Assembly: GCF_011764485.1 (NCBI RefSeq)
Contig: NZ_AP022848.1
Span: forward strand, 1,144,001 to 1,208,000
DNA: 64,000 nucleotides
Direction of reading: 5' to 3'
Origin: Bosea sp. ANAM02
Lineage (GTDB): Bacteria > Pseudomonadota > Alphaproteobacteria > Rhizobiales > Beijerinckiaceae
The position numbers and the translations under genes are program-made. Positions 10,272 to 43,322 of the stretch are shown one piece after another. Numbering within the stretch: position 1 is the stretch's first letter; each line of letters opens with the position of its first letter. The notes under the pieces are model-generated. The model was not told the DNA's origin and did no database searches. It saw only the letters and a list, made by a program, of their open reading frames with translations.

Positions 10272-10424
10272 GAGCTGCCCAGCCGCCAGCCAGCAGATGA
10301 CGGAAATGCAGGCTTCAATGTTTGTAAGTGGCGTCGCAAACTGCCGTTCGAACGAGGGGACGGTCTTGGCTTCCAGAGTGGACGACATGCGGCAGGGAAC
10401 CGCCTGCCATAGGGGAACGATCGG

Positions 10425-31971: not shown

Positions 31972-32754
31972 CTACATCGCGGGAAGCACCGCGATGTCCC
32001 TGGCCGCGGCGGTGAGGCCTGTGATCTTGCCGATCGCGGTCGCCTTGCCTGTCGCCAGGTCGACCTTGTGCAAGGCGCCGTCGGCGAGCAGCCAGCCGGT
32101 ATTGGCGCCGTCCGCCGCGGTCTCGATGTCGAAGGCGACCGTCTTCGGCATGACCCCGAGCTTGCCGACAGCGCCGAGGACGCCGTCATTCGGAGGCGCC
32201 TGCTTGATCAGTCCGCCGATCTTGCCGTCGATATCGTAGAGCGCCGTTTCCTTCGTGCCCTTGACCGAATTAGTGTAGGCGCCGGCCACGATCATCGGCG
32301 CTTCGCCCTTGTGCATGTCGGTCTCGGCGAATTTCAGCTTGCCGTCGACGGTGGTCTTGCCGTCGTCGACATTGACGCGAAGGTTCGTTCCGTCCGAGCC
32401 CATCACCCGCAAACGGTCGGCGGCGGGGTTGAAATCGACCGTGGCCGTCGCGCCGGCGGACAGCACGGTATCCATCTTGGATTTCTTCGTCGCCTTGCCG
32501 GTCTTGTCGACCGTGTAGATCGTGCCGTCGATGCCGAGCGCATAGAGCATGCCGTCGGCCGGTCGGACATCGATGCCGGCGATCTTGCCGGCGATGCCGG
32601 TGACCTTCATGGATTGGCCGGCCTTCAGAGATGCAGTGTCGATCATGGTGAGCGTGTCGTCGCCGGTCAGGGCCGCGAGCGTGGCTGCCTGCGCGGCAAT
32701 CCCGCTGCCGAGGCAGGTGGAAACGACGAGGGCGAAACGGATCGTCTTGGTCAT
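31972..32754 (-). CDS. DUF4394 domain exported protein
   Basis: 260 residues. A Sec signal peptide (IRFALVVSTCLGSGIAAQA, cleavage near residue 23) is followed by a beta-propeller-like DUF4394 domain with repeated strands such as LAALTGDDTLTMIDTASL, IAGIDVRPADGMLYALG and TVDFNPAADRLRVMG. The function of DUF4394 is not known. It is likely periplasmic. It is divergent from the first ECF sigma gene, a pairing common for SigK/RskA-type loci. It has its own copy of the shared ECF-type promoter motif (32808-32836). Confidence 0.88.
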   Translation of the reverse strand: MTKTIRFALVVSTCLGSGIAAQAATLAALTGDDTLTMIDTASLKAGQSMKVTGIAGKIAGIDVRPADGMLYALGIDGTIYTVDKTGKATKKSKMDTVLSAGATATVDFNPAADRLRVMGSDGTNLRVNVDDGKTTVDGKLKFAETDMHKGEAPMIVAGAYTNSVKGTKETALYDIDGKIGGLIKQAPPNDGVLGAVGKLGVMPKTVAFDIETAADGANTGWLLADGALHKVDLATGKATAIGKITGLTAAARDIAVLPAM

Positions 32755-32807: not shown

Positions 32808-32836
32808 GGATAGAGCCGGGACAAGGTGTTGGATGC
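32808..32836 (-). promoter_or_regulatory. ECF-type promoter for the DUF4394 gene (P1)
   Basis: Read on the minus strand: GCATCC (32836-32831), 18 bases, TATCC (32812-32808). The start codon is 53 bases downstream. It shares spacing and core bases with six other sites between 32.8 and 42.5 kb. Confidence 0.6.
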
Positions 32837-32862
32837 GCTCAAAAAAATAAAACGGCTGCCGT

Positions 32863-32892
32863 GCATCCATTACGGCTGCGACAGCGTATCCT
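32863..32892 (+). promoter_or_regulatory. ECF-type promoter for the first sigma/anti-sigma pair (P2)
   Basis: GCATCC (32863-32868), 18 bases, TATCCT (32887-32892). The start codon is 45 bases downstream. The -35 lies within the imperfect inverted repeat CCGTGCATCCATTACGG (32859-32875). This repeat and the GCGTAT of the -10 recur at the same spacing before the lipoprotein hydrolase gene at 42477. Confidence 0.65.
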
Positions 32893-32936
32893 CTCGTCGT
32901 GCAGTCCAGCCGGGACTGTCGAGCAAGGGATTCCGC

Positions 32937-33497
32937 ATGGGCGTCGACGCCGCGCAATCGCACGGAACAGGTATCGAGCAGGCGCTCGCAGCCTGCGCCG
33001 GCGGCGATAAAAACGCGCTCCGGCGCATCTACGACCAGGAATGCCCGCGTATGATCGGTGTGGCGCAGCGTATGCTGAAGCGCCGCGCCCTGGCGGAGGA
33101 AGCGGTGCAGGACAGTTTCATCCTGATCTGGCGGCATGCGGGACGGTTCGATCCGCAACGCGGTTCGGGCCTGACCTGGATCTATGCCATCCTGCGCAAT
33201 CGGACGCTGTCGATCCTGCGCGACGAGAGGCGCATGGAGACGGATGAAAACCCGATCGGCGCGGAAGCCGCCAGCGACGACGACGATCCCGAGACGGTGA
33301 TGGCGAAGCTTTCCGATGCCGAGGCCCTGCGCGGCTGCCTTGAGACCCTGCCTGCCGCCCGGCGCGGAATGGTGCTGCTCGCCTTCGCGCAGGGGCTGAG
33401 CCATGGCGAGATCGCCGGCAGGCTCGGCATGCCGCTCGGCACGGTGAAATCCTGGATCCGGCGCTCGCTGATCGCCCTCAGGGAGTGCCTCGGATGA
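32937..33497 (+). CDS. ECF RNA polymerase sigma factor (SigK-like)
   Basis: 186 residues. Region 2 is ALRRIYDQECPRMIGVAQRMLKRRALAEEAVQDSFILIWRHAGRFDPQRG with the DNA-melting WIYAILRN element. Region 4 is LPAARRGMVLLAFAQGLSHGEIAGRLGMPLGTVKSWIRRSL. ATG 32937 follows AAGGGA and fits the TSS expected from the promoter at 32863. The next gene, an RskA-like anti-sigma factor, overlaps it by 4 bases (ATGA). The protein should direct RNA polymerase to its own promoter and perhaps to the related promoters nearby. Confidence 0.93.
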   Translation: MGVDAAQSHGTGIEQALAACAGGDKNALRRIYDQECPRMIGVAQRMLKRRALAEEAVQDSFILIWRHAGRFDPQRGSGLTWIYAILRNRTLSILRDERRMETDENPIGAEAASDDDDPETVMAKLSDAEALRGCLETLPAARRGMVLLAFAQGLSHGEIAGRLGMPLGTVKSWIRRSLIALRECLG

Positions 33498-34216
33498 CGC
33501 AGGAGCCGAACCGCGAAATCCGCGCCGGAGAATATGTGCTTGGCCTGCTCGATGGCGCCGAAAGGGAGGCGTTCGAAAGGCAGATGGCGGGCGATGCGAA
33601 GCTGGATGCCGCGGTGGTCCGCTGGCAGGAACGGCTGGCGCCGATCGACATGATTGCGCCGGCGCTCGCTCCATCGGCCGATCTCTGGCAGCGGATCGAG
33701 CGCGGACTCGGCCGCGCTCCCGCCGCAAGCCCGGCGGCAGCGCGAAGGACCGCGCTCGGCGCCCGGCTTGCGCGATGGTGGGACAATCTCTGGCTCTGGC
33801 GCGGCGCGGCCTTTGCCGGCGCCGCGGCGGCGATCCTGCTCTCCGTCGGGCTCGTCGCGACCCTCGACCGCGCCCGCCGTCAACCCGTGATGGTCGCCGT
33901 CCTGCTGACGGATGCCAATATCGCCGCGGCGGTGGTGAACACGTTCGCCGACGGGCGCGTCGAATTGCTGCCGCTTCAGGATATCGCGGTGCCGCAAGGG
34001 CGGGCTCTGGAAATCTGGACGCTATGGGACCGGGCGGCCGGGCCACGCTCCGTCGGCCTGATCGACCGGGCTCGCGCCGTGGCGTTGCGGCTCGACGACC
34101 TGCCGCTGGGCGCCGACCAGCTCTTCGAGATCACGGTGGAGCCGGCTGCCGGTTCCCCGACCGGGCGCCCGACCGGCCCGATCGTCGCGAAGGGCCTGAC
34201 TGCGCGACGCCTTTAG
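33494..34216 (+). CDS. RskA-like membrane anti-sigma factor
   Basis: 240 residues. The cytoplasmic N-terminus REIRAGEYVLGLLDGAEREAFERQMAGDAKLDAAVVRWQERLAPID is the anti-sigma part and lacks an HxxxCxxC zinc motif. A single span lies at about 98-120 (AAFAGAAAAILLSVGLVATL). The periplasmic RskA domain has PQGRALEIWTLWDRAAGPRSVGLIDR. It should sequester the sigma factor encoded just upstream until an envelope signal triggers its proteolysis or release. Start ATG 33494 overlaps the sigma stop. Confidence 0.9.
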   Translation: MTQEPNREIRAGEYVLGLLDGAEREAFERQMAGDAKLDAAVVRWQERLAPIDMIAPALAPSADLWQRIERGLGRAPAASPAAARRTALGARLARWWDNLWLWRGAAFAGAAAAILLSVGLVATLDRARRQPVMVAVLLTDANIAAAVVNTFADGRVELLPLQDIAVPQGRALEIWTLWDRAAGPRSVGLIDRARAVALRLDDLPLGADQLFEITVEPAAGSPTGRPTGPIVAKGLTARRL

Positions 34217-34259
34217 ATGAGCGGCACCGCGATGGGCGTGGCTGAAAGGCCGGCGCCCG

Positions 34260-35495
34260 TCAGCGACCTTGCAGCGCGATCAGGTTGACGTCGATCGTGC
34301 GGGCGCGGAAGCCCGCCTCGCAATAGCAGAGATAGAACTCCCAGAGCCGGCGAAACGGCTCGTCGAACCCCAGCGGAGCGATGTCCGCCCAGCTCTCCAG
34401 GAAGCGCCGGCGCCACTCCTTCAGGGTCAGGGCGTAGCTCTCGCCGAAGTCGAGCTCTTCGACCACGGCGAGAGCGGCCGCCTCGGCGCTGCGCCTCAGG
34501 GCCGGAACCGAGGGCAGGCTGCCGCCGGGGAAGATGTAGCGCTGGATGAAATCGGTGCCTTGCTGGTAGCTTTCGAACAGCGCGTCGTCAATCGTGATCG
34601 CCTGCAGGACGACCCGGCCGCCAGGCTTGAGCGAGCGGCCAAGGGTGTCGAAATAGGAGGGCCAATAGGCCCGGCCGACCGCCTCGATCATCTCGATGGA
34701 AACGATGCGGTCGAACTGTCCGGCAATGTCCCGGTAGTCCCGAAGCTCGATGGTGACGCGCCCGGACAGGCCTGCTTCGGCGATGCGCTGCCGTGCCGCT
34801 TCGAGCTGGGCCGGCGACAGGGTTATCGCTGTCACCCGGCAGCCCTCGCGGGCGAGCCGCTCCGCCAGCGCACCCCAGCCGCAGCCGATCTCCAGGACAT
34901 GCTCGCCGCCCGATAGATCGAGCATGGCGACGATCCGGTCGAGCCGGCGCTGCTGCGCGGCTTCGAGCGTCTCGCCCGGCCCCTCGTAGAGCGCCGAGGA
35001 ATACATCATGCTGGCGTCGAGCCAATGGCCGTAGAATGCGTTGCCGAGATCGTAATGCGCGGTGATGTTGCGGCGGCTGCCGCGGCGGGTATTGGCGTTG
35101 AGCACGTGGCGCAGGCGGTTGACCAGCCGTGCCGGCCAGGCGCCCGAAACCAGCTTGCGCAAGGTCGCGTCGTTGCGCGCGCCGAGCTCGATCAGGGCTG
35201 TAAGGTCCGGCGTATGAAGGTCGCCGTCGCGATAGGCTTCGGCCAGGCCGATATCGCCGTCGAGCAGAAGGCGTCGCATCGCGCGCCAGTTGTTCAGGAT
35301 CATCGTCGCCTGCGGCCCCGGCAGGCCGGGCGCGCTGCAGACCCGCTCGCCGTCCGGCGTGAAGACCGTGAGCTGCCCGATCGTGATGCGGGAGAGCACG
35401 CGACGCAGGAACCAGCGCGACAAGCTCAATCCGTTCGGCGCCGCGAATGTCTGCTCGGGCAGGCGAAGGGGATGATCGGTTTCGGGCCGGCTCAT
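34260..35495 (-). CDS. Cyclopropane-fatty-acid synthase family methyltransferase
   Basis: 411 residues, full length for the CFA synthase family. SAM motif I is HVLEIGCGWGALAERLA near residue 190. Substrate-region signatures are ITAHYDLGNAFYGHWLDASMMYSSALY, IVSIEMIEAVG, and FIQRYIFPGGSLPS. It methylates acyl chains of membrane phospholipids. Homologues in RpoE-ChrR regulons act in cyclopropane or furan fatty-acid formation. It is the third gene of a minus-strand operon (FAD oxidoreductase, DUF1365, this), with 4-base overlaps at each junction. Confidence 0.93.
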   Translation of the reverse strand: MSRPETDHPLRLPEQTFAAPNGLSLSRWFLRRVLSRITIGQLTVFTPDGERVCSAPGLPGPQATMILNNWRAMRRLLLDGDIGLAEAYRDGDLHTPDLTALIELGARNDATLRKLVSGAWPARLVNRLRHVLNANTRRGSRRNITAHYDLGNAFYGHWLDASMMYSSALYEGPGETLEAAQQRRLDRIVAMLDLSGGEHVLEIGCGWGALAERLAREGCRVTAITLSPAQLEAARQRIAEAGLSGRVTIELRDYRDIAGQFDRIVSIEMIEAVGRAYWPSYFDTLGRSLKPGGRVVLQAITIDDALFESYQQGTDFIQRYIFPGGSLPSVPALRRSAEAAALAVVEELDFGESYALTLKEWRRRFLESWADIAPLGFDEPFRRLWEFYLCYCEAGFRARTIDVNLIALQGR

Positions 35496-36295
35496 GGTTG
35501 CGTCGCTCCTTTCGCGTGCGGCGTCGCCATGCGGCCCCGGCTGAAGGGCGGCTCCGGCGCGGCCGAATGCGGCTGCCAGGGAATGCGCTTCGCCAGCAGC
35601 CGCAATGCGTGCCAATGGATGGCGGCGGTGACCTTCAGCGTGAGAAGCGGATGGGTCGCGAGCAGCCGCAGCAAGGTGGCATCGCCGAGTTCGGATCGCT
35701 TGCCGCTCAGCACGGCGGTGATCAGGCGCCCTTGGGCGTCGCTGCCCTCGATGGCGACGGAGACGCGCTGTCCCGGCGGGGTCACCGTGAAGGCGTAGCT
35801 CATGCCCAGCTTCATGAACGGTGAAACGTGAAAGACCTTGTCGGCCTCCTGCCGCACGGTGCCTTCCGCAGCTTCGGCCGGCGCGACATAGCTGTGAACT
35901 TCGCCGAACGTGTTGTGCACCTCATAGACGGTGGCGCAGAGGCTGCCGTCGCGGCGGTAGCAGAAATAGGTGCTGAGGGGATTGAAGGCGTAACCGAGGA
36001 TGCGCGGCATCGTCAGGAGGTGGATCGGGCCGCCGTCATGGGCGATGCCGGCATCCGTCAGGGCGGCCTCGACCTGCGGGCGCAGCGGACGGCCGCTGCG
36101 ATCCCCGTAATCCGCGTCGCGAAAGGCGTAGAGATTGAAGCGGTTGCGCGAGAAGAACGCGAGCTTCGTCGAAAGCCGGTCGATCTCGTCGAGATCGAGC
36201 AGCATCCAGAAGACGCGATAGGCCAGCGCATGCGGGCGGGGCCGGAAGCGATGATGCCTGACACGGCCGACATAAAGGGCGGATTGCCAGGTCAT
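35492..36295 (-). CDS. DUF1365 family protein
   Basis: 267 residues. The N-terminus SALYVGRVRHHRFRPRPHALAYRVFWMLLDLDEID and the middle LLTMPRILGYAFNPLSTYFCYRRDGSL are diagnostic of DUF1365 (COG3496). The biochemical role is unknown. The gene nearly always lies between a FAD-dependent oxidoreductase and a CFA synthase, as here, so it probably takes part in modification of unsaturated acyl chains. It overlaps both neighbours by 4 bases. Confidence 0.93.
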   Translation of the reverse strand: MTWQSALYVGRVRHHRFRPRPHALAYRVFWMLLDLDEIDRLSTKLAFFSRNRFNLYAFRDADYGDRSGRPLRPQVEAALTDAGIAHDGGPIHLLTMPRILGYAFNPLSTYFCYRRDGSLCATVYEVHNTFGEVHSYVAPAEAAEGTVRQEADKVFHVSPFMKLGMSYAFTVTPPGQRVSVAIEGSDAQGRLITAVLSGKRSELGDATLLRLLATHPLLTLKVTAAIHWHALRLLAKRIPWQPHSAAPEPPFSRGRMATPHAKGATQP

Positions 36296-37629
36296 GCGGC
36301 CAGGTTCCGCTGGGCCGCGTGCGGGATGCGGCCGGATTCATCGCGCACCTGCCAGGGCCGGCGCACGCCGCCGAGGGCCTCGGCGACGGCAAGCCCCGCC
36401 TGCAAGCCGTCCTCGTGGAAGCCCGATCCGAAATAGGCGCCGCAGAACCAGCTCCGACGCATGCCCTGCAAGGACCAGAGCCGTTCCTGCGCATCCAGTG
36501 CGGCGGCATCGAACAACGGGTGTTCATAGACCTCCTCGTGGAGGATGCGTTCGTGGCGCAACGTGTCCGGCGGGTTGAGCGTGACGAAAAAGGGCCGTGC
36601 TTCCGGGAGACCCTGAAGGCGGTTCATCCAGTAGGTGACGGCGCAGGCCGCATCCGGCCGGGCGCGGTCGCCGATATGGTTCCAGCTCGCCCAGGCGCGA
36701 CGGCGTTTCGGCATCAACGCTTCGTCGCCATGGAGCACCGCGCGGTTGCGGCTGTACCGGAAGGCGCCGAGTGCCTCGGCTTCCGCGCTGCTGGCGTCCG
36801 TGATCATCGCCAGCGTCTGGTCGGCATGGCTGGCGAAGACGACATGGTCGAAGGTCTCGGTCCAGCCCTCGCCGCTCAGAACGGCGGCATCGGCGGCACG
36901 CCGAACCTGCCTCACCGGCGCGCCGGTCCGTACCTCGCCCCGAAAGGCTTTCCGCAGCGTCTCGACATAGGTGCCGCTACCGCCGGTCACGGTGCGCCAG
37001 ACCGGCCGGTCGGTGAGCTGGAGCAGGCCGTGATTGTGGTGGAAGCGCAGGAAGGCCGCGGCCGGATAGGACAGGATTTCCGCGCAGGGCGCCGACCAGA
37101 TCGCGGCAGCCATCGGCAGGAGATGATCGTCGCGGAATGCGGCGCCATAGCCGCCTGCGGCGAGATAGTCGCCGAGCGAGACGCCACCTGCGCCACCCGC
37201 AAGCGCATCCCTGGAGGCGTTGCGATAGAAGCGGGTGATGTCCTGGAGCATCGCCCAGAAGCGGGGGCGCACCAGATTGCTCCGCTGGGCGAACAGGCCG
37301 GCCACGCTGGTGCCGCTGTATTCGAGCCGCCCGCCGTCGAGAGACACGGCGAAGGACATCTCCGTTGCCTGCGTGGCGACGCCCAGATGCGCCATCAGGG
37401 CGACGAAATTCGGATAGGTCGCCTCGTTATAGACGATGAAGCCCGTATCGACCGCCGTTTCGCCGCCATCGCCGGCGATGCGGACCGTATTCGCGTGACC
37501 GCCGAGGCGGGGCGCGGCTTCGAACAGCACCACGTCATGGGCCTGTCCCAGCAACCACGCGGCCGAAAGCCCGGAGATGCCGGCGCCGATCACGGCGATC
37601 CGCATCGTCTTGCCCTGCGCCCGTTCCAT
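36292..37629 (-). CDS. FAD-dependent oxidoreductase (COG2907, amine-oxidase-like)
   Basis: 445 residues. The dinucleotide-binding motif is IAVIGAGISGLSAAWLL near residue 10, then LFEAAPRLGGHANTV and a second FAD contact near DTGFIVYNEATYPNF. The end has GSGFHEDGLQAGLAVAEALGG, which closes the FAD site. It is the first gene of the FAD-DUF1365-CFA operon. Start ATG 37629 has AGGGA 7 bases upstream and lies just after the TSS expected from P3; longer starts would be before the TSS. It probably oxidises an acyl chain. An UfaO-like role in furan fatty acid synthesis is a guess. Confidence 0.9.
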   Translation of the reverse strand: MERAQGKTMRIAVIGAGISGLSAAWLLGQAHDVVLFEAAPRLGGHANTVRIAGDGGETAVDTGFIVYNEATYPNFVALMAHLGVATQATEMSFAVSLDGGRLEYSGTSVAGLFAQRSNLVRPRFWAMLQDITRFYRNASRDALAGGAGGVSLGDYLAAGGYGAAFRDDHLLPMAAAIWSAPCAEILSYPAAAFLRFHHNHGLLQLTDRPVWRTVTGGSGTYVETLRKAFRGEVRTGAPVRQVRRAADAAVLSGEGWTETFDHVVFASHADQTLAMITDASSAEAEALGAFRYSRNRAVLHGDEALMPKRRRAWASWNHIGDRARPDAACAVTYWMNRLQGLPEARPFFVTLNPPDTLRHERILHEEVYEHPLFDAAALDAQERLWSLQGMRRSWFCGAYFGSGFHEDGLQAGLAVAEALGGVRRPWQVRDESGRIPHAAQRNLAA

Positions 37630-37654
37630 CGTCGCGTCCCTGCTGATCATGAGC

Positions 37655-37684
37655 GGTATACGCGGCATGGGACGAACTGGATTT
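37655..37684 (-). promoter_or_regulatory. ECF-type promoter for the FAD oxidoreductase operon (P3)
   Basis: On the minus strand: AAATCC (37684-37679), 18 bases, TATACC (37660-37655), with GCG before TAT as in the other copies. The start codon is 25 bases downstream. Confidence 0.65.
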
Positions 37685-37715
37685 GTCGCGGGGCCGGCAA
37701 AAGCTCAGGGCGGTG

Positions 37716-37745
37716 TGACCCAACACCGCCGCGCCTGCGTAAACG
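37716..37745 (+). promoter_or_regulatory. ECF-type promoter for the membrane-protein/DUF2147 genes (P7)
   Basis: TGACCC (37716-37721), 18 bases, TAAACG (37740-37745), again with GCG before TA. It is the weakest of the seven matches at the -10. The start codon at 37779 is 34 bases downstream. It shares the gap with P3, which points the other way. Confidence 0.45.
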
Positions 37746-37778
37746 CGGGAAGGCCGGGAAATTCCGCGAGAGATCTGG

Positions 37779-38381
37779 ATGATGCCGATGAGCAGAATGA
37801 AGCGGATGGCTGCGATGATCGGCGGGTATGCGGCACATCCCGATCCCCGCGGCGCGGTCGCCAATGCCGTCGCGCTGGTGATCGTCTCGAACCAGCCGTT
37901 CTATCCGCTTTACGTCTACTGGGCGGTCTCGCCGGTCGTCGCGCCCTCCTATCTGACGTTCCTCTCGACGCCTTTCTTCGCCGCCGTGCCGGCAGCCATG
38001 CGGCGCAACCCGCTGTCGGGACGAGCGCTGCTTCTGGCCGCGGGTATCGGCAATACCCTGCTGTGCCGCGCCGCTTTCGGCCCCGGATCGGGGGTCGAGG
38101 TCTTCCTGTTTCCCTGTCTCATGCTGGCGCTGATGCTGTTTCGCCGTTCCGAACGCGTCTTTGCATTCGGCTCCGCCGCGCTGGCCTATCTCGCCTACCT
38201 CCTGCCGACCTCGCTGCTCGGCGCGCCATCGCATCTCTACGAGCCCGTCGAGTACGCGGCTTTGCAGCGCCTGAACTTCCTCAGCGCGGCTTCCCTGACG
38301 GTGCTGATCGGATGGCTCTTCTGCAGGAGCCTCGACAGAATTTCGCGTGGCGATGAAACCGGCGACGCCCGCGGAGCGTAG
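37779..38381 (+). CDS. Multispan membrane protein of unknown function
   Basis: 200 residues and about six hydrophobic spans, for example GAVANAVALVIVSNQPFYPLYVYWAV, FLSTPFFAAVPAAM, GVEVFLFPCLMLALMLF and FGSAALAYLAYLLPTSLL. I do not recognise the family. It may be related to the membrane domain of sensor proteins. It is divergent from the FAD oxidoreductase operon and 30 bases upstream of the DUF2147 gene. Two ATGs (37779, 37782) are equally possible starts. Its place inside the block with the shared promoter suggests an envelope stress role. Confidence 0.75.
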   Translation: MMPMSRMKRMAAMIGGYAAHPDPRGAVANAVALVIVSNQPFYPLYVYWAVSPVVAPSYLTFLSTPFFAAVPAAMRRNPLSGRALLLAAGIGNTLLCRAAFGPGSGVEVFLFPCLMLALMLFRRSERVFAFGSAALAYLAYLLPTSLLGAPSHLYEPVEYAALQRLNFLSAASLTVLIGWLFCRSLDRISRGDETGDARGA

Positions 38382-38411
38382 ACGGGATGCATCCGCCGAA
38401 AGGATCTCGTC

Positions 38412-38780
38412 ATGACGCGCCTTCCGCTTGCTCTCGCGCTCGCCGTCCTTGTGGTCGACGGCGTATCCGCCAGCGATCTCGACGGGACATGGCTGCGCGA
38501 CGACGGCAATGCGCGCGTGCGGATCGCGCCATGCGGCGACAAGATCTGCGCCACCAATCTCTGGATCGGCGACACCAGCAAGGGCGAGGCGGCCGGCGAC
38601 AAGCTCGTCATGACGCTGGCCCGCCAGCCCGACGGCACATTTTCCGGCAGCGCCTACGACCCCAAGCGCGACTGGACCTATGCGATGACGATCACCGCGA
38701 CGCCCGGTGCGCTCGTCACCCGCGGCTGCATCGTGGGGGGCCTGATCTGCCGCGACGTGAACTGGAAGGCTGCCGAGTGA
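38412..38780 (+). CDS. DUF2147 family exported protein
   Basis: 122 residues. A Sec signal peptide (RLPLALALAVLVVDGVSA, cleavage near residue 20) is followed by the DUF2147 core: DGTWLRDDGNARVRIAPCGDKICATNLWI and a C-terminal half ending GLICRDVNWKA. Three or four cysteines may form disulfides. The family is periplasmic and of unknown function, often tied to lipid or envelope genes. No separate promoter motif was found, so it is probably read with the gene 30 bases upstream. Confidence 0.87.
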   Translation: MTRLPLALALAVLVVDGVSASDLDGTWLRDDGNARVRIAPCGDKICATNLWIGDTSKGEAAGDKLVMTLARQPDGTFSGSAYDPKRDWTYAMTITATPGALVTRGCIVGGLICRDVNWKAAE

Positions 38781-38801
38781 CGGCGACCGATCTCATCCCT
38801 G

Positions 38802-38831
38802 TGATCCGGTGCGGCGTCACCCGCGTATCTG
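38802..38831 (+). promoter_or_regulatory. ECF-type promoter for the ECF-ChrR operon (P4)
   Basis: TGATCC (38802-38807), 18 bases, TATCTG (38826-38831). This is the best match to the TGATCC -35 described for RpoE of Rhodobacter. The transcript would start near 38838, ahead of the sigma gene at 38869, which fits autoregulation. Confidence 0.7.
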
Positions 38832-38868
38832 GCCTATGGTTCCCGCACTCGCCCTGACCGTCGACGGC

Positions 38869-39456
38869 ATGCGCAAGGCGGGAGCCTGCGCGCAAGGAGG
38901 TCGCTTCATCGTCCTGTTCGACCCCAACAGACTGATTGCCGCGATTGCGCGCTCGGGCGACCGGGAGGCTTTCGCCGCGCTGTTCGACCATTTCGCGCCC
39001 CGCGTGAAAGGGCTTCTGATGCGCGGCGGTGCTTCGGCGGAGCTGGCCGAGGAGGTCGCGCAGGAAACGCTCTTGGCCGTCTGGCGCAAGGCCGCCCTGT
39101 TCGACCCTGCGAAAGCCAGCGCCTCGACCTGGATCGCAACGATCGCGCGCAATCTGCGCATCGACATCGCCCGCCGCGAAATGCGCTCGCGGCTATCGCA
39201 AGTTTACGAGATTCTGGATGAAGAAGCCCCCGAACAACCCGATGCGACGCTCTCCGGCGCCGAGCGCGATGCGCGCGTGAGGGCCGCGATGACCCAGCTT
39301 TCCCCCGACCAGTATCGCGTGGTCGAACTGGCGTTCCTGGAAGGCTTCAGCCATCAGGATGTCGCAAACCGTCTCGCCATCCCGCTGGGCACGGTGAAGT
39401 CCCGCCTACGCCTGGCATTGTCGCATCTGCGCGGCCGGCTGGAGGACCTGCGATGA
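38869..39456 (+). CDS. ECF RNA polymerase sigma factor (ECF11/RpoE-like)
   Basis: 195 residues from the chosen ATG. Region 2 is FAALFDHFAPRVKGLLMRGGASAELAEEVAQETLLAVWRKAALFDPAKASASTWIATIARN. Region 4 is LSPDQYRVVELAFLEGFSHQDVANRLAIPLGTVKSRLRLALSHLRGRL. The next gene overlaps by 4 bases and encodes a ChrR-type anti-sigma factor, which marks the ECF11 group (singlet oxygen and organic peroxide response). The start is uncertain: an earlier ATG is at 38836, and a strong AAGGAGG at 38894-38900 precedes only non-standard in-frame codons. Confidence 0.88.
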   Translation: MRKAGACAQGGRFIVLFDPNRLIAAIARSGDREAFAALFDHFAPRVKGLLMRGGASAELAEEVAQETLLAVWRKAALFDPAKASASTWIATIARNLRIDIARREMRSRLSQVYEILDEEAPEQPDATLSGAERDARVRAAMTQLSPDQYRVVELAFLEGFSHQDVANRLAIPLGTVKSRLRLALSHLRGRLEDLR

Positions 39457-40079
39457 GCGTCGCGCATCGCCCATCCGACGAAACGCTCGCAGCCTTCGCC
39501 GCGGGGCAGCTCGACGAGGGGCTGGCGCTGGTCGTCGCCTGCCATGTCGAAGCGGACCCGGAGAGTCGGCGGCGCCTGCGGGAGCTGGAGGCCGTGCAAG
39601 GCGCGCTGCTGGAGGAGGTTCAACCCGTCGCGATGGCCGCTGGGCCCCGGGATAGGCGCGGCGGCGCGACGGCTGCTGCGGATTCCGGAATGGCGCGATC
39701 GCCCGTTGAAGCCGGCATGCCCGGCGTGCTTCGCCCTTACGGCCTTGGTCCGTGGCGGCCGATCGGCATCCGCATCGCCATGCGGCGCGTCGAGGTCCCC
39801 GGCGCGGATGCGCGTGTCTTCATGTTGCGGGCCGGACCTGGAATCGCCCTGCCGCACCACAAGCATACCGGCTTCGAATGGACCACGATTCTCGCCGGTG
39901 CCTATGAACATGAGTACGGGCGCTATGCGGCCGGGGATTTCGACGAGGCCGATGCCGAGCATGACCACACGCCGCGCGTGGACCCGGTCGAAGGCTGCAC
40001 CTGTATCGTCGCGATGACGGGCAGCGTGCGGCTGCAGGGATGGCTCGGCAGGCTGCTGCAGCCGCTGGTGCGGTTTTGA
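39453..40079 (+). CDS. chrR: ChrR-type cupin anti-sigma factor with altered zinc site
   Basis: 208 residues. Residues 1-80 align with the ChrR anti-sigma domain: His5 and His31 are kept, but the two zinc cysteines expected at 35 and 38 are Asp35 and Ser38 (ACHVEADPESRR). The C-terminal cupin keeps His136, His138 and Glu142 in LPHHKHTGFEW, and His172 in EHDHTP, the metal ligands of the ChrR cupin lobe. It should hold the upstream sigma factor inactive and release it on oxidative signals. The start overlaps the sigma stop (ATGA). The next gene begins within its stop codon. Confidence 0.9.
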   Translation: MSVAHRPSDETLAAFAAGQLDEGLALVVACHVEADPESRRRLRELEAVQGALLEEVQPVAMAAGPRDRRGGATAAADSGMARSPVEAGMPGVLRPYGLGPWRPIGIRIAMRRVEVPGADARVFMLRAGPGIALPHHKHTGFEWTTILAGAYEHEYGRYAAGDFDEADAEHDHTPRVDPVEGCTCIVAMTGSVRLQGWLGRLLQPLVRF

Positions 40080-40876
40080 CGGTCGTCTCCTTTGCCGCGG
40101 CTGTTGCCTTCGTGGCGCTGGCCATGTCCGCCTTCATGGCCTTGGCGACGAAGGTCGAACGCCGCACCGGCAATTCCGGCTGGATCGACGTGGTCTGGAC
40201 CTTCGGCCTGGGATTCGCGGGCATCGCCGGGGCGCTGCTGCCTTTCGGGAACGGGCCGATGTCGCGGCGCCTGCTCGTCGCGACGCTCGCTCTGGCATGG
40301 GCGCTTCGGCTCGGCCTGCACATCGCGCGGCGGACCAGCGGCATCGCTGAAGATCCACGCTATGCCAGATTGAAAAGCGACTGGGGCGGCGATGCTCCCC
40401 GGCAGCTCGCCCGGATGCTGCAGATGCAGGCATTGGCGAGCATCCCACTGGGGTTGGGAATCGTTCTGGCGGCCCATAAGCCCATGCCTTCGCTGGGCTG
40501 GGGCGATCTCGCGGGTATCGCCGTGTTCGCGGCCGGGCTGGCGGGCGGGGCCGTGGCCGACGGGCAGTTGCGGGCCTTTGCCCGTTCGAACCGCGGCGGC
40601 GTCTGTGATTACGGCCTGTGGCGCTGGTCGCGCCATCCCAATTATTTCTTCGAATGCGTGCTGTGGTGCTCCTATGCCGTGATCGCTCTGGGTGCCGGCT
40701 ATCCATGGGGCTGGCTCGCCTTGCTCGCGCCGGCCTGCATCACCCTGTTGCTGACGCGCATCTCCGGCATCCCGCCCCTGGAAGAGCACATGCTCGCCAA
40801 GCATGGCGATGCCTATCGCGCGTACCAAAGCCGAACCAGCGCCCTGATCCCGCTGCCGCCGAAAGGAGCGACGTGA
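40076..40876 (+). CDS. DUF1295 membrane protein (steroid 5-alpha-reductase-like)
   Basis: 266 residues, starting at a TTG that overlaps the chrR stop (TTGA). Several spans are followed by the conserved C-terminal signature GVCDYGLWRWSRHPNYFFECVLWCSYAVI, and it ends EEHMLAKHGDAYRAYQSRTSALIP. DUF1295 (COG3752) proteins resemble steroid reductases and isoprenylcysteine methyltransferases and probably reduce or modify a lipid in the membrane. It is coupled to chrR upstream and to the CFA-family gene downstream. Confidence 0.9.
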   Translation: MTVVSFAAAVAFVALAMSAFMALATKVERRTGNSGWIDVVWTFGLGFAGIAGALLPFGNGPMSRRLLVATLALAWALRLGLHIARRTSGIAEDPRYARLKSDWGGDAPRQLARMLQMQALASIPLGLGIVLAAHKPMPSLGWGDLAGIAVFAAGLAGGAVADGQLRAFARSNRGGVCDYGLWRWSRHPNYFFECVLWCSYAVIALGAGYPWGWLALLAPACITLLLTRISGIPPLEEHMLAKHGDAYRAYQSRTSALIPLPPKGAT

Positions 40877-41898
40877 TGACGATCATGCAGAAGCTTTCGA
40901 CCTGGGGCGAGGGGCTCCCGGTTCCCGATGCCGTCAGCCGCATGGTGATTGCGTCGCTGGTCGGGCGCACCGCGCGTTCGCTGACCGCGCAGTCAAGCGA
41001 TGCCGCAAGCTTTGCCCGCGACATGGCGGATTTTCCGATTGCCGTTCATACCGACGCCGCCAACGCCCAGCATTACGAGGTGCCGGCCGCCTTCTTCGAT
41101 CAGGTTCTCGGCGCCCGGCGCAAATACTCCTGCTGCTACTACGCCGATCCCGGCGATACGCTGGCGGCAGCCGAGGAGAAGGCGCTGGAGCTGACCGCTG
41201 AGCATGCCGGGCTGGCCGAGGGCCAGCGGATCCTCGAACTCGGCTGCGGCTGGGGTTCGCTGTCGCTTTGGATGGCGGAGCGCTATCCGAAGGCGCGGAT
41301 CGTGTCGGTCTCCAACTCGGCTTCACAGCGCGCCTATATCGAAGCGCAGGCGCAGCGCCGCCATCTCGGGAATCTCACCGTCGTCACCGCTGACATGAAC
41401 GCGTTTGCGACGGAGGAGCGTTTCGATCGCGTGGTCTCCGTCGAGATGTTCGAGCACATGGCGAACTGGCGCGAACTGCTCGGGCGTGTTCGTCGCTGGC
41501 TGAAGCCGGACGGCCGGCTCTTCATCCATGTCTTCGCCCATCGGCAGGGCTGCTACCGCTTCGACGCCGCCGATACGGGCGACTGGATCGCGCAGCACTT
41601 CTTCACCGGTGGCCTGATGCCGAGCGCGACGCTGGCGCATCAGTTCCCCGATCTCTTCACCGTTGAGGCCGAGTGGCGCTGGAGCGGCGAGCATTATCGC
41701 GCGACGGCCGAGGACTGGCTGGCGAATTTCGATCGCAACCTCGCGGCGATCGACCCCATCCTGCGCGATACCTATGGCGCGGATGCGCTGCTCTGGAGGC
41801 GCCGCTGGCGCCTGTTCTTCCTCGCGACGAGCGGCTTGTTCGGCCATGCCGGCGGCGAGGCCTGGGGCGTCCATCACTACCGACTGCGCTCGGCGTAA
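40876..41898 (+). CDS. CFA-synthase-family SAM methyltransferase (second copy)
   Basis: 340 residues, shorter than true CFA synthase. SAM motif I is RILELGCGWGSLSLWMAERYP near residue 118. The lipid-region motifs are HYEVPAAFFDQVLGARRKYSCCYY and VVSVEMFEHMANW. The end has WRLFFLATSGLFGHAGGEAWGVHHYRL. ATG 40876 follows AAGGAG by 7 bases and overlaps the previous stop by one base. This branch usually travels with DUF1295 and ECF11/ChrR genes. Its acyl substrate is unknown and may differ from that of the gene at 34260. Confidence 0.9.
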   Translation: MTIMQKLSTWGEGLPVPDAVSRMVIASLVGRTARSLTAQSSDAASFARDMADFPIAVHTDAANAQHYEVPAAFFDQVLGARRKYSCCYYADPGDTLAAAEEKALELTAEHAGLAEGQRILELGCGWGSLSLWMAERYPKARIVSVSNSASQRAYIEAQAQRRHLGNLTVVTADMNAFATEERFDRVVSVEMFEHMANWRELLGRVRRWLKPDGRLFIHVFAHRQGCYRFDAADTGDWIAQHFFTGGLMPSATLAHQFPDLFTVEAEWRWSGEHYRATAEDWLANFDRNLAAIDPILRDTYGADALLWRRRWRLFFLATSGLFGHAGGEAWGVHHYRLRSA

Positions 41899-41918
41899 AC
41901 GGCCGGGCGGCCGATGCT

Positions 41919-42332
41919 CTAAACCCAGCCCCAACCGGCCAGGCGGCGGACGACGCCGAAGGCGAACCATGTGCACAGGCCGACCACGACCGTGCCGTAG
42001 ACGAGATCGGCCAGCGTGATCGTCAATGTCCAGGGCCGCAGCGTGGCATAGTTGGTCAGGTCGTAGGTGGCATAGGCGAGCAAACCGATGAGCGCGCCGT
42101 TGAGCAGGGCTGCATTCGCGCTACCGTCGCGCAAAGCCGGCATCAGCGCGAAATGGACCACCCCGAGCGGGAACCCGAAATAGAACAGCGCCGCCGGCCA
42201 GTAGCGCACCGGTTCGACGATCAGGTCGCCCAGGACCGGGCGGTAGAGCCTTGCGGTCATCGTGCTCAGCCAGATGGCGTCGCAAATGCCGAAGGCGAGG
42301 AGGAAGGCGACGTAACCGGCGGTGAAGCGCAT
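41919..42332 (-). CDS. DUF2177 membrane protein
   Basis: 137 residues, four spans. The conserved DUF2177 features are visible: FGICDAIWLSTMTARLYRP near the start, the VRYWPAALFYFGFPLGVVHFAL span, and LLAYATYDLTNYATLRPWTLTITLADLVYGTVV. Start ATG 42332 is chosen for its CAGGAGATC ribosome site and because it lies just after the TSS expected from P5. The function is not known. It converges with the methyltransferase gene and is divergent from the lipoprotein hydrolase gene. Confidence 0.9.
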   Translation of the reverse strand: MRFTAGYVAFLLAFGICDAIWLSTMTARLYRPVLGDLIVEPVRYWPAALFYFGFPLGVVHFALMPALRDGSANAALLNGALIGLLAYATYDLTNYATLRPWTLTITLADLVYGTVVVGLCTWFAFGVVRRLAGWGWV

Positions 42333-42355
42333 GACGATCTCCTGAATTCCGAGAA

Positions 42356-42385
42356 GAGATACGCCGGGTGTGCAAGGATGGTTCA
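42356..42385 (-). promoter_or_regulatory. ECF-type promoter for the DUF2177 gene (P5)
   Basis: On the minus strand: TGAACC (42385-42380), 18 bases, TATCTC (42361-42356), with GGCG before TAT. The start codon is 23 bases downstream. Confidence 0.6.
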
Positions 42386-42417
42386 GTGCCGCTTGCGATC
42401 TGCTCCCATCGTGCCGT

Positions 42418-42447
42418 AAATCCATTACGGCCGGCGGAGCGTATAGG
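42418..42447 (+). promoter_or_regulatory. ECF-type promoter for the lipoprotein hydrolase gene (P6)
   Basis: AAATCC (42418-42423), 18 bases, TATAGG (42442-42447). It overlaps the exact inverted repeat CCGTAA-ATCCA-TTACGG (42414-42430), which is nearly the same as that at P2. The start codon is 29 bases downstream. Confidence 0.65.
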
Positions 42448-42476: not shown

Positions 42477-43322
42477 ATGACGCTCCGGATTGCTCGACGC
42501 ACGATCCTGCCGCTGCTCGCCGGGCTCGCATTGCCCGCCTGCGCGGCCCTGCGACCGGGCGGCCTGACCCAGGGCGCGCGCGACGTTGCCTATGGCCCGC
42601 ATCCCCGTCAGCGCATGGATATCTATGTTCCTCCCGGCGCCCCCGACGTGCCGAAGCCGGTGGTCTTCTTCGTCTATGGCGGCTCATGGGCGAACGGCGC
42701 CAAGGAAACCTATTCCTTTGTCGGGGATGCGCTTGCCGCACGCGGCTTCGTCACGGTGATCGCGGATTATCGCCTGGTGCCGGAGGTCCGTTTCCCGGTC
42801 TTCATCGAGGACGGCGCGCTGGCGCTGCGCTTCGTGCGGGACACTGTCGCCCGCTTCGGCGGCGCGCCGCGAGACCTCCACCTGATGGGGCATTCGGCGG
42901 GTGCATACAACGCCATGATGCTGACGCTGGACCAGCGCTATCTTGCCGCCGTGGGGATGCGCACTGGCGACATTCGGTCGACCATCGGCCTCTCCGGCCC
43001 CTACGATTTCCTGCCGTTCGACATCGATGTGACGAAGGCGGCGTTCGGAACTGCGCGCGACCTGGCCGGAACGCAACCGATCAATTTCGTGCGCCGGGAC
43101 ACGCCGCCGATCTTTCTGGCGACGGGCTCCGACGACACGACGGTCCTCCCTCGCAACAGCGAGCGCCTGGCGGCGGCGCTCAAAAGGGCCGGCGCCCGAT
43201 CGGTCGCTCTCAAGATCTATCCGGGACTCGGCCATGCCGGCACGGCGACGGCGCTCTCCAGGCTTCTGCAATGGCAGGCACCCGTCCTCGACGATGTCGT
43301 AGCGTTCCTGAAAGAAACCTGA
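42477..43322 (+). CDS. Lipoprotein alpha/beta hydrolase (esterase-like)
   Basis: 281 residues. The N-terminus ends in a lipobox (LAGLALPAC), so the mature protein is probably a lipid-anchored periplasmic enzyme. The oxyanion segment is VVFFVYGGSWANGAKE. The nucleophile elbow is LMGHSAGAYNA, the acid is in ATGSDDTTVL and the histidine in PGLGHAGT, so the triad is complete. This is the BD-FAE/carboxylesterase type. Start ATG 42477 is used rather than a GTG at 42447 that falls in the promoter. Shared control with the lipid genes suggests a lipid or ester substrate. Confidence 0.88.
   Translation: MTLRIARRTILPLLAGLALPACAALRPGGLTQGARDVAYGPHPRQRMDIYVPPGAPDVPKPVVFFVYGGSWANGAKETYSFVGDALAARGFVTVIADYRLVPEVRFPVFIEDGALALRFVRDTVARFGGAPRDLHLMGHSAGAYNAMMLTLDQRYLAAVGMRTGDIRSTIGLSGPYDFLPFDIDVTKAAFGTARDLAGTQPINFVRRDTPPIFLATGSDDTTVLPRNSERLAAALKRAGARSVALKIYPGLGHAGTATALSRLLQWQAPVLDDVVAFLKET

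Follow-up and report, generated by a model that had tools for sequence, protein, structure and literature searches.

Two near-identical promoter codes suggest a compact ECF11-type lipid-stress regulon beside an independent SigK-type module in Bosea sp. ANAM02

The main contig of the 5.65-Mb genome of Bosea sp. ANAM02 carries, in the 64-kb stretch analysed here (bases 1,144,001-1,208,000, hereafter the window), a block of membrane-lipid genes that contains two extracytoplasmic function (ECF) sigma factor genes, sigA and sigB, each adjoined by an anti-sigma factor gene, and seven promoter-like sites of common spacing. Are the seven sites read as a single regulon, or do two separate systems stand side by side with closely similar promoter codes? 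We favour the second answer, with a probability of about 0.85: two autonomous ECF systems would adjoin here, a SigB-ChrR system of the ECF11 type and a SigA-RskA system of the SigK type, and the block is best read as a compact ECF11-type regulon for lipid stress, with an independent module of the SigK type next to it. The ChrR regulon at this locus would comprise five transcription units, perhaps six. The gene families, the sites, their conservation and their division into two classes were read from the sequence itself, with families assigned by Pfam and NCBIfam profile searches and some gene starts set by inspection (Table 1).

An earlier note on this DNA had listed seven sites with a TGATCC-like -35 element followed by 18 bases and TAT at the -10, and all seven read exactly as written at the positions and on the strands that it gave. 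The 18-base spacing also held, and the -10 element is better written CGTA than TAT because published ECF11 sites read so; CGTA is present at six of the seven sites, the DUF4394 site having TCTA. For the consensus TGATCC-N16-CGTA, PMC5507510 used chromatin immunoprecipitation sequencing (ChIP-seq) in Pseudomonas syringae, and PMC4336711 mapped two starts in Shewanella. Before the sigB operon this consensus is exact, and at least 9 of its 10 letters are found there in 37/37 genus blocks. The nearest PDB sequence to SigB is Rhodobacter sphaeroides RpoE (2q1z_A, E 3.9e-38, versus 2.2e-24 for SigK), and a ChrR-family anti-sigma factor gene adjoins the sigma gene. The suggestion that the units of this membrane-lipid gene block stand behind promoters with an RpoE-ChrR-type code was borne out. 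For SigA, the PDB matches are about equal (RpoE 2e-22, SigK 9e-22), and the gene is adjoined by an anti-sigma factor gene with an RskA_C domain, as in the SigK-RskA (ECF18/19) group. Two conserved cysteines are described as a SigK hallmark in the accessible text of PMC7509140; both (C141 and C191 of the query) are present in SigA and in 59/59 homologues, and SigB has no cysteine at all.

The sites themselves part into two classes at the -35 element, which is GCATCC on both sides of the DUF4394-sigA intergenic region and TGATCC-like at the other five sites. A SigK-type sigma factor was found in 51/297 genomes from the order and in 51/67 genomes of the genus (one a fragment), the window's genome included. 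With 53 matches listed in each of these two sets and up to 30 taken per set, 59 SigK-type loci were compared, all 59 with an RskA match and 47 with a DUF4394 gene within reach. The search patterns left the first two -35 letters free. GCATCC-N16-NGTA stands before sigA in 51/59 loci (29/30 in the genus and 22/29 outside it) when the scan extends to 90 bases past the aligned start, or in 48/59 when it extends to 30 bases; TGATCC was found before sigA in none of the 59. Toward DUF4394, where a looser -10 was allowed, 45 of 49 matches (in the 48 loci with any match) read GCATCC and none TGATCC. Conversely, among 161 sites at the five ChrR units TGATCC occurs 38 times and the remainder are TGAACC, AAATCC, TGACCC and similar, with GCATCC in 0/161 although it would score the same as AAATCC. 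The two classes also differ in geometry. In SigK-type pairs the divergent -35 elements lie 24-28 bp apart in 37/48 loci, around an A-rich tract with a mean AT fraction of 0.54, whereas in ChrR-type pairs they lie about 31 bp apart with an AT fraction of 0.28-0.30, in a comparison that scanned both strands and in which the second ChrR group may count pairs twice.

A single regulon of seven promoters that embraces DUF4394 and sigA-rskA, recognised by one or both of the sigma factors, is what the earlier note had proposed, and this part of it did not survive: the -35 letters split into two classes, and a common regulon for all seven sites was rejected on that ground. All seven -35 elements do end in NCC, the sites have a common spacing and, in six of seven, CGTA, and sigA-rskA does adjoin the block in the window and in the related loci L230, L234, L236 and L237, with a remnant in L235 (L and G numbers are our labels for loci and genomes). 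However, the SigK-type sigma factor keeps its own code in most loci examined, and ChrR units keep theirs in genomes without it. For instance, in G314, G325, G348 and G358 the ChrR block is present, the SigK-type sigma factor was not detected (E 1e-40) and 19/20 ChrR-class sites are kept; the AAATCC sites therefore seem independent of SigA. We give the single regulon very little credence. In G325 (locus L235, around 10297-10299), a DUF4394 remnant (residues 69-214) abuts an RskA remnant (residues 145-243), the apparent footprint of a deletion.

A hierarchical arrangement would be subtler. Where the two modules adjoin, SigB might also activate sigA-rskA and DUF4394, making the SigK-type system a second tier of the lipid response. 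The GCATCC-N16-CGTA site before sigA matches the ECF11 consensus at 8/10 letters, equal to the AAATCC site of the flavin adenine dinucleotide (FAD) protein gene, and in the window's subclade the -10 element is CGTATCC, both of which suit such a hierarchy. However, a ChrR-block gene lies within 1.5 kb in only 5/59 SigK-type loci; the same GCATCC stands before sigA where none was found within that distance (54/59 loci), and it is unaltered in the five adjoining cases. This arrangement we consider unlikely. Two autonomous systems remain the preferred reading, with DUF4394 a likely target of the SigK-type one. They share the spacing and most of the -10 element and differ mainly in the first two -35 letters, TG versus GC, which would make the locus a clean case of how near promoter codes can sit without merging. 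A published statement of the GCATCC-N16-NGTA code was not found in the literature searched, which included PMC4821874 in the portions available. What would be new here is this clean separation of two near-identical codes, together with a ChrR that appears to lack the anti-sigma zinc site (below).

The ChrR-class sites are conserved in relatives. Two sets were compared. For a wider set, 215 relatives of the block were found, the nearest of them Bosea species, and 79 loci kept, of which L031-L066 (at most 36 loci, from Bosea to other families) were used and the 43 more distant loci L067-L109 left out. A genus set comprised 36 blocks from 35 other genomes plus the window (37 in all). Gene starts were excluded where the match missed more than the first 25-30 residues of the query, had less than 40-45% identity or lay too near the locus end. 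In the genus set, at least 8 of 10 letters are found at sigB in 37/37 blocks, at the FAD gene in 36/36, at the membrane-protein gene in 29/29, at DUF2177 in 37/37 and at the esterase gene in 21/23 (22/23 in the raw count, the G297a match sitting elsewhere); at least 9 letters are found in 37, 7, 25, 31 and 13 blocks, respectively. In the wider set, the 8-letter counts are 35/35, 35/35, 21/22, 28/33 and 16/20, the membrane-protein row of L035 being a locus-edge artefact. Genes internal to the operons rarely have such a site (chrR 0/37, DUF1365 0/35, DUF1295 1/30, cfaX 2/33, cfaY 3/37), and at eight other spacings there is at most one match of at least 9 letters per unit and spacing in the genus set. 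Across dozens of genomes the spacers drift while the hexamers are kept, and the distance to the genes is nearly fixed.

In the case of cfaX, the function of the site is supported by rearrangement, because relocated cfaX carries its own site. The gene lies outside the FAD operon in seven genomes, and AAATC(C/T)-N16-CGTAT precedes it in six of them (five cases in the genus set, and G305 in the wider set); in the seventh, G345, a different sequence had an equal or better score. Of the two 8-letter cfaX matches counted above, one is such a rearranged site. DUF2147 may be a sixth unit of the ChrR regulon, perhaps under a conserved weaker site, absent from the earlier list, that overlaps the coding end of the upstream gene: at least 8/10 letters at a spacer of 17 are found in 26/29 loci, by eye at the position of this eighth site. 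G297 carries two ChrR-block copies (L231 and L233), and its SigK-type sigma factor was found only as a fragment.

Could the sites be fortuitous, or merely follow from constraint on coding sequence and a high GC content? In the window, ATCC-N18-TAT occurs five times, in 5/5 cases inside the block; the control spacings N14-N17 give 7, 3, 2 and 0 matches and N19-N22 give 5, 1, 1 and 2, with one of the five N19 matches in the block. The 5.65-Mb genome has 136 matches (25 for a reversed control), a density that predicts about 0.2 in 9.6 kb. Gene starts were also scored, within 130 bp, against the 10 letters of the consensus taken from other bacteria. A site of at least 8/10 letters is found at 6/8 block gene starts, as compared with a mean of 0.33 and a maximum of 4 in first-order Markov shuffles (n=3,000). 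Elsewhere the best scores are 7/10 for DUF2147, 6/10 for DUF4394 and 6-7/10 for three further control starts, while the neighbouring MFS gene, before which the motif had been reported missing, reaches only 5/10 and agrees with that report.

Genome-wide, four strict patterns have 32 distinct matches, of which six are in the block and 6/6 of these at promoters, counts that lean somewhat to the block in that the NNATCC-N16-CGTAT pattern was picked with the block sites known. The 26 matches outside divide, by a rule on G+C content at third codon positions (GC3), into 19 inside frames judged coding and seven that are not: three are followed by a frame after 39-98 bp and one after 160 bp, one touches a doubtful frame and two face none. 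A regulon distributed over the genome was rejected on these counts, only about 3/26 outside matches being plausibly placed before a gene; weaker members may exist elsewhere. At C1:43095 (L126), TGAACC-N16-CGTA stands 39 bp before a heavy-metal P-type ATPase gene and by eye overlaps a MerR-type palindrome. At C1:1833911 (L135), CGATCC-N16-CGTATC stands 44 bp before a frame without a Pfam match, near another CMAS methyltransferase gene. The exact string TGATCC-N16-CGTA has three copies in the genome, one being the sigB promoter and two lying inside apparent coding frames.

Several observations weigh against the reading of two autonomous systems with functional sites, and some of them speak for chance. 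A loose 8-of-10 scan of the window gives 61 matches at each of N16 and N19 (30-53 at six further spacings tried in N12-N20), and the loose motif alone is therefore not specific, its share in the block being 13/61 at N16 versus 4-12 at other spacings. Taken singly, the starts are weaker (esterase alone P 0.064, sigA and FAD 0.027), and FAD sites reach 9 letters in only 7/36 genus blocks. The exact string is present in 67/67 genus genomes at 1-10 copies each (reversed control 0-2), including 31 without a match to the DUF1295 marker of the ChrR block (the marker is present in 36/67, the window's genome included); it is useless as a genus-wide regulon marker, since all 67 genomes carry a copy. G348 (L041), L046, L054 and L064 have no esterase site and G297a has it displaced, and at DUF2177 in the wider set four Phreatobacter-type loci have a spacer of 17 and L065 has no site. 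Eight of the 59 SigK-type loci lack GCATCC-N16-NGTA (one has TCATCC and seven no such site). The genus and wider locus sets overlap, and related genomes are not independent. Finally, two -35 letters are the main difference between the codes, so that each sigma factor might also recognise sites of the other class, most of all where the FAD and esterase genes have AAATCC.

To these points chance can add that wrong spacings give 8-letter matches where coding sequence is conserved, at cfaY (15/37), DUF1295 (14/30) and sigB (12/37), and that the DUF2147 site overlaps a coding end. However, strict matches fall at promoters in 6/6 cases in the block versus about 3/26 elsewhere, and the exact spacing, the near-fixed distance to genes and the drift of spacers around kept hexamers in dozens of genomes all argue otherwise. 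Spacing, genome counts and conservation led us to reject a chance origin, and we attach practically no weight to it.

The pairing of each sigma factor with its sites, the operon limits, the signals and the lipid products are deduced from these features, and suggest the following course for two autonomous systems. SigB would recognise a TGATCC-like -35 element and a CGTA -10 element 16 bases apart, and would drive sigB-chrR-DUF1295-cfaY, the FAD-DUF1365-cfaX operon and, divergent from it, the membrane-protein gene (with DUF2147), as well as the divergent DUF2177 and esterase genes. ChrR would restrain SigB until singlet oxygen or lipid peroxide stress, whereupon the enzymes of the block may modify the acyl chains of the membrane by methylation and oxidation, with furan fatty acids as the probable products. 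SigA, under its membrane anti-sigma factor, would recognise GCATCC-N16-NGTA and drive the sigA-rskA operon and the divergent DUF4394 gene.

The inference of furan fatty acids as the likely products comes from gene families. In R. sphaeroides, UfaM, UfaD and UfaO make furan fatty acids, and UfaO contains DUF1365, according to the available portions of PMC7380195; RSP_1091 is described as a flavin-containing protein (PMC5507510, likewise seen in part). The CMAS, FAD and DUF1365 proteins of the block fall in the Pfam families of UfaM, UfaD and UfaO, that is, an S-adenosylmethionine (SAM) methyltransferase, an FAD protein and a DUF1365 protein, and the ECF11-type promoters agree with a possible correspondence. 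Unlike that pathway, the block has a DUF1295 gene and a pair of CMAS paralogues. PMC6852236 cites Dufour 2008 for a core ECF11 regulon that contains these genes, and puts the singlet-oxygen core regulon of R. sphaeroides RpoE-ChrR at about eight genes. The Bosea block resembles the R. sphaeroides system in the sigma factor sequence, the ChrR family, the cupin ligands, the promoter code and the furan-fatty-acid-type genes under that code. It differs in packing five or six units into one block with few strict promoter copies elsewhere, in containing DUF2147, DUF2177 and an esterase (although P. syringae, too, has an esterase/lipase gene as a predicted target; PMC5507510), and in having a ChrR without H6, C35 and C38. 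The SigK-type module, for its part, shares with SigK-RskA (ECF18/ECF19; PMC7509140, in part) both cysteines, the overlapping RskA_C gene and a divergent gene under the same promoter class, and differs in its DUF4394 partner protein and its GCATCC-N16-NGTA promoter.

How, then, might this ChrR hold its sigma factor? According to the available portions of PMC6852236, ChrR binds zinc through H6, H31, C35 and C38 in the anti-sigma domain and through H141, H143, E147 and H177 in the cupin domain, and the anti-sigma zinc is required to inhibit sigma-E, its precise role in the singlet-oxygen response being unknown. The window ChrR scores above the cut-off for TIGR02451 and falls short of the narrower NF051881 (185.3 bits, cut-off 300). 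At H6, H31, C35 and C38 it has R, H, D and S, three of the four ligands that mark the ZAS (zinc-binding anti-sigma) family being replaced. The cupin ligands are kept, with HxH...E in 71/72 distinct sequences (one has a gap there) and the equivalent of H177, H172, invariant in a 23-row ChrR alignment. To these 72 distinct ChrR sequences one search, which matched 240 genomes, contributed only 30 loci. Among the 72, 18 have CxxC and all 18 have H6, and 54 lack CxxC, 52 of these also lacking H6. A single group with 100/100 support (Bosea, Phreatobacter, Enterovirga and close relatives) unites 45 rows that lack C35, of which 44 lack H6, 44 lack C38 and all keep H31; a second lineage of nine rows comes from two other families, seven of them with CxxS. 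R6 co-occurs with D35 in 26/27 D35 sequences, which are related and make this a lead only.

In a predicted model of the window ChrR, three helices of the anti-sigma domain are confident (block predicted local distance difference test (pLDDT) scores of 81-97, residues 1-50), as is the cupin, and the top PDB match of the model is 2q1z (probability 1.00). AlphaFold does not model zinc, and the model is therefore no demonstration of stability without it. Other groups do have anti-sigma domains without zinc, RseA being one example (PMC6852236 and PMC7406223, both seen in part); the window ChrR would resemble these in a helical domain held without zinc, and differs in that the domain is fused to a ChrR cupin and stands beside an ECF11-type sigma factor. 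No ChrR clade without the zinc site was found in the literature searched, most of which was available at less than full-text depth. On balance we lean slightly toward the view that in the Bosea/Phreatobacter ECF11 systems the zinc site was lost, H6, C35 and C38 going together and mostly to R, D/N and S; that inhibition is exerted by protein contacts, perhaps including an R6-D35 salt bridge; that sensing falls to the cupin alone; and that the second lineage is part-way along the same path. If so, these proteins would amount to a natural test of whether singlet oxygen is sensed by the anti-sigma zinc, and a conserved clade without the site would make the role of that zinc in ChrR directly testable.

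Table 1. Genes and promoter-like sites of the block, in window coordinates
Feature	Coordinates	Strand	Evidence and remarks
DUF4394 protein, apparent signal peptide	31972..32754	-	PF14339, 234 bits; adjoins sigA in 47/59 loci
Promoter-like site GCATCC-N16-TCTATCC before DUF4394	32808..32836	-	SigK-type class; GCATCC also on reverse side in other loci
A-rich tract between two divergent -35 elements, possible UP element	32837..32862	.	AT 0.58
Promoter-like site GCATCC-N16-CGTATCC before sigA-rskA	32863..32891	+	SigK-type class
sigA, SigK-like ECF sigma factor	32937..33497	+	Pfam; start by inspection
rskA, anti-sigma factor, RskA_C domain; one transmembrane stretch by eye	33485..34216	+	PF10099, 70.5 bits (cut-off 29.4)
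cfaX, CMAS-family SAM methyltransferase, gene 3 of FAD operon	34260..35498	-	PF02353
DUF1365 protein, UfaO-like	35492..36295	-	PF07103
FAD amine-oxidase-like protein, UfaD-like, start uncertain	36292..37605	-	PF01593, PF13450
Promoter-like site AAATCC-N16-CGTATACC before FAD-DUF1365-cfaX operon	37655..37684	-	ChrR class; 36/36 genus blocks
Promoter-like site TGACCC-N16-CGTAAACG before membrane-protein gene	37716..37745	+	ChrR class; 29/29 genus blocks
200-residue membrane protein	37779..38381	+	Weak MASE7 match, PF20967, 28.2 bits (cut-off 26.2)
Weak eighth site TGAAACC-N16-CGTAGA before DUF2147	38354..38382	+	Overlaps end/stop codon of upstream gene
DUF2147 protein	38412..38780	+	PF09917
Promoter-like site TGATCC-N16-CGTATCTG before sigB-chrR-DUF1295-cfaY	38802..38831	+	Exact consensus; 37/37 genus blocks
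sigB, RpoE (ECF11)-like sigma factor, start uncertain	38869..39456	+	R. sphaeroides RpoE 2q1z_A, E 4e-38
chrR, ChrR-family anti-sigma factor	39453..40079	+	TIGR02451, 154.4 bits (cut-off 124.5)
DUF1295 membrane protein	40040..40876	+	PF06966
cfaY, second CMAS-family SAM methyltransferase	40876..41898	+	PF02353
DUF2177 membrane protein, start by inspection	41919..42332	-	PF09945
Promoter-like site TGAACC-N16-CGTATCTC before DUF2177	42356..42385	-	ChrR class; 37/37 genus blocks
Promoter-like site AAATCC-N16-CGTATAGG before esterase gene	42418..42447	+	ChrR class; true site in 21/23 genus blocks
BD-FAE-type esterase, lipoprotein signal by eye, start by inspection	42477..43322	+	PF20434

For the membrane protein encoded between the divergent FAD operon and DUF2147, the MASE7 sensor domain is the sole Pfam domain found, at a score barely over the cut-off.

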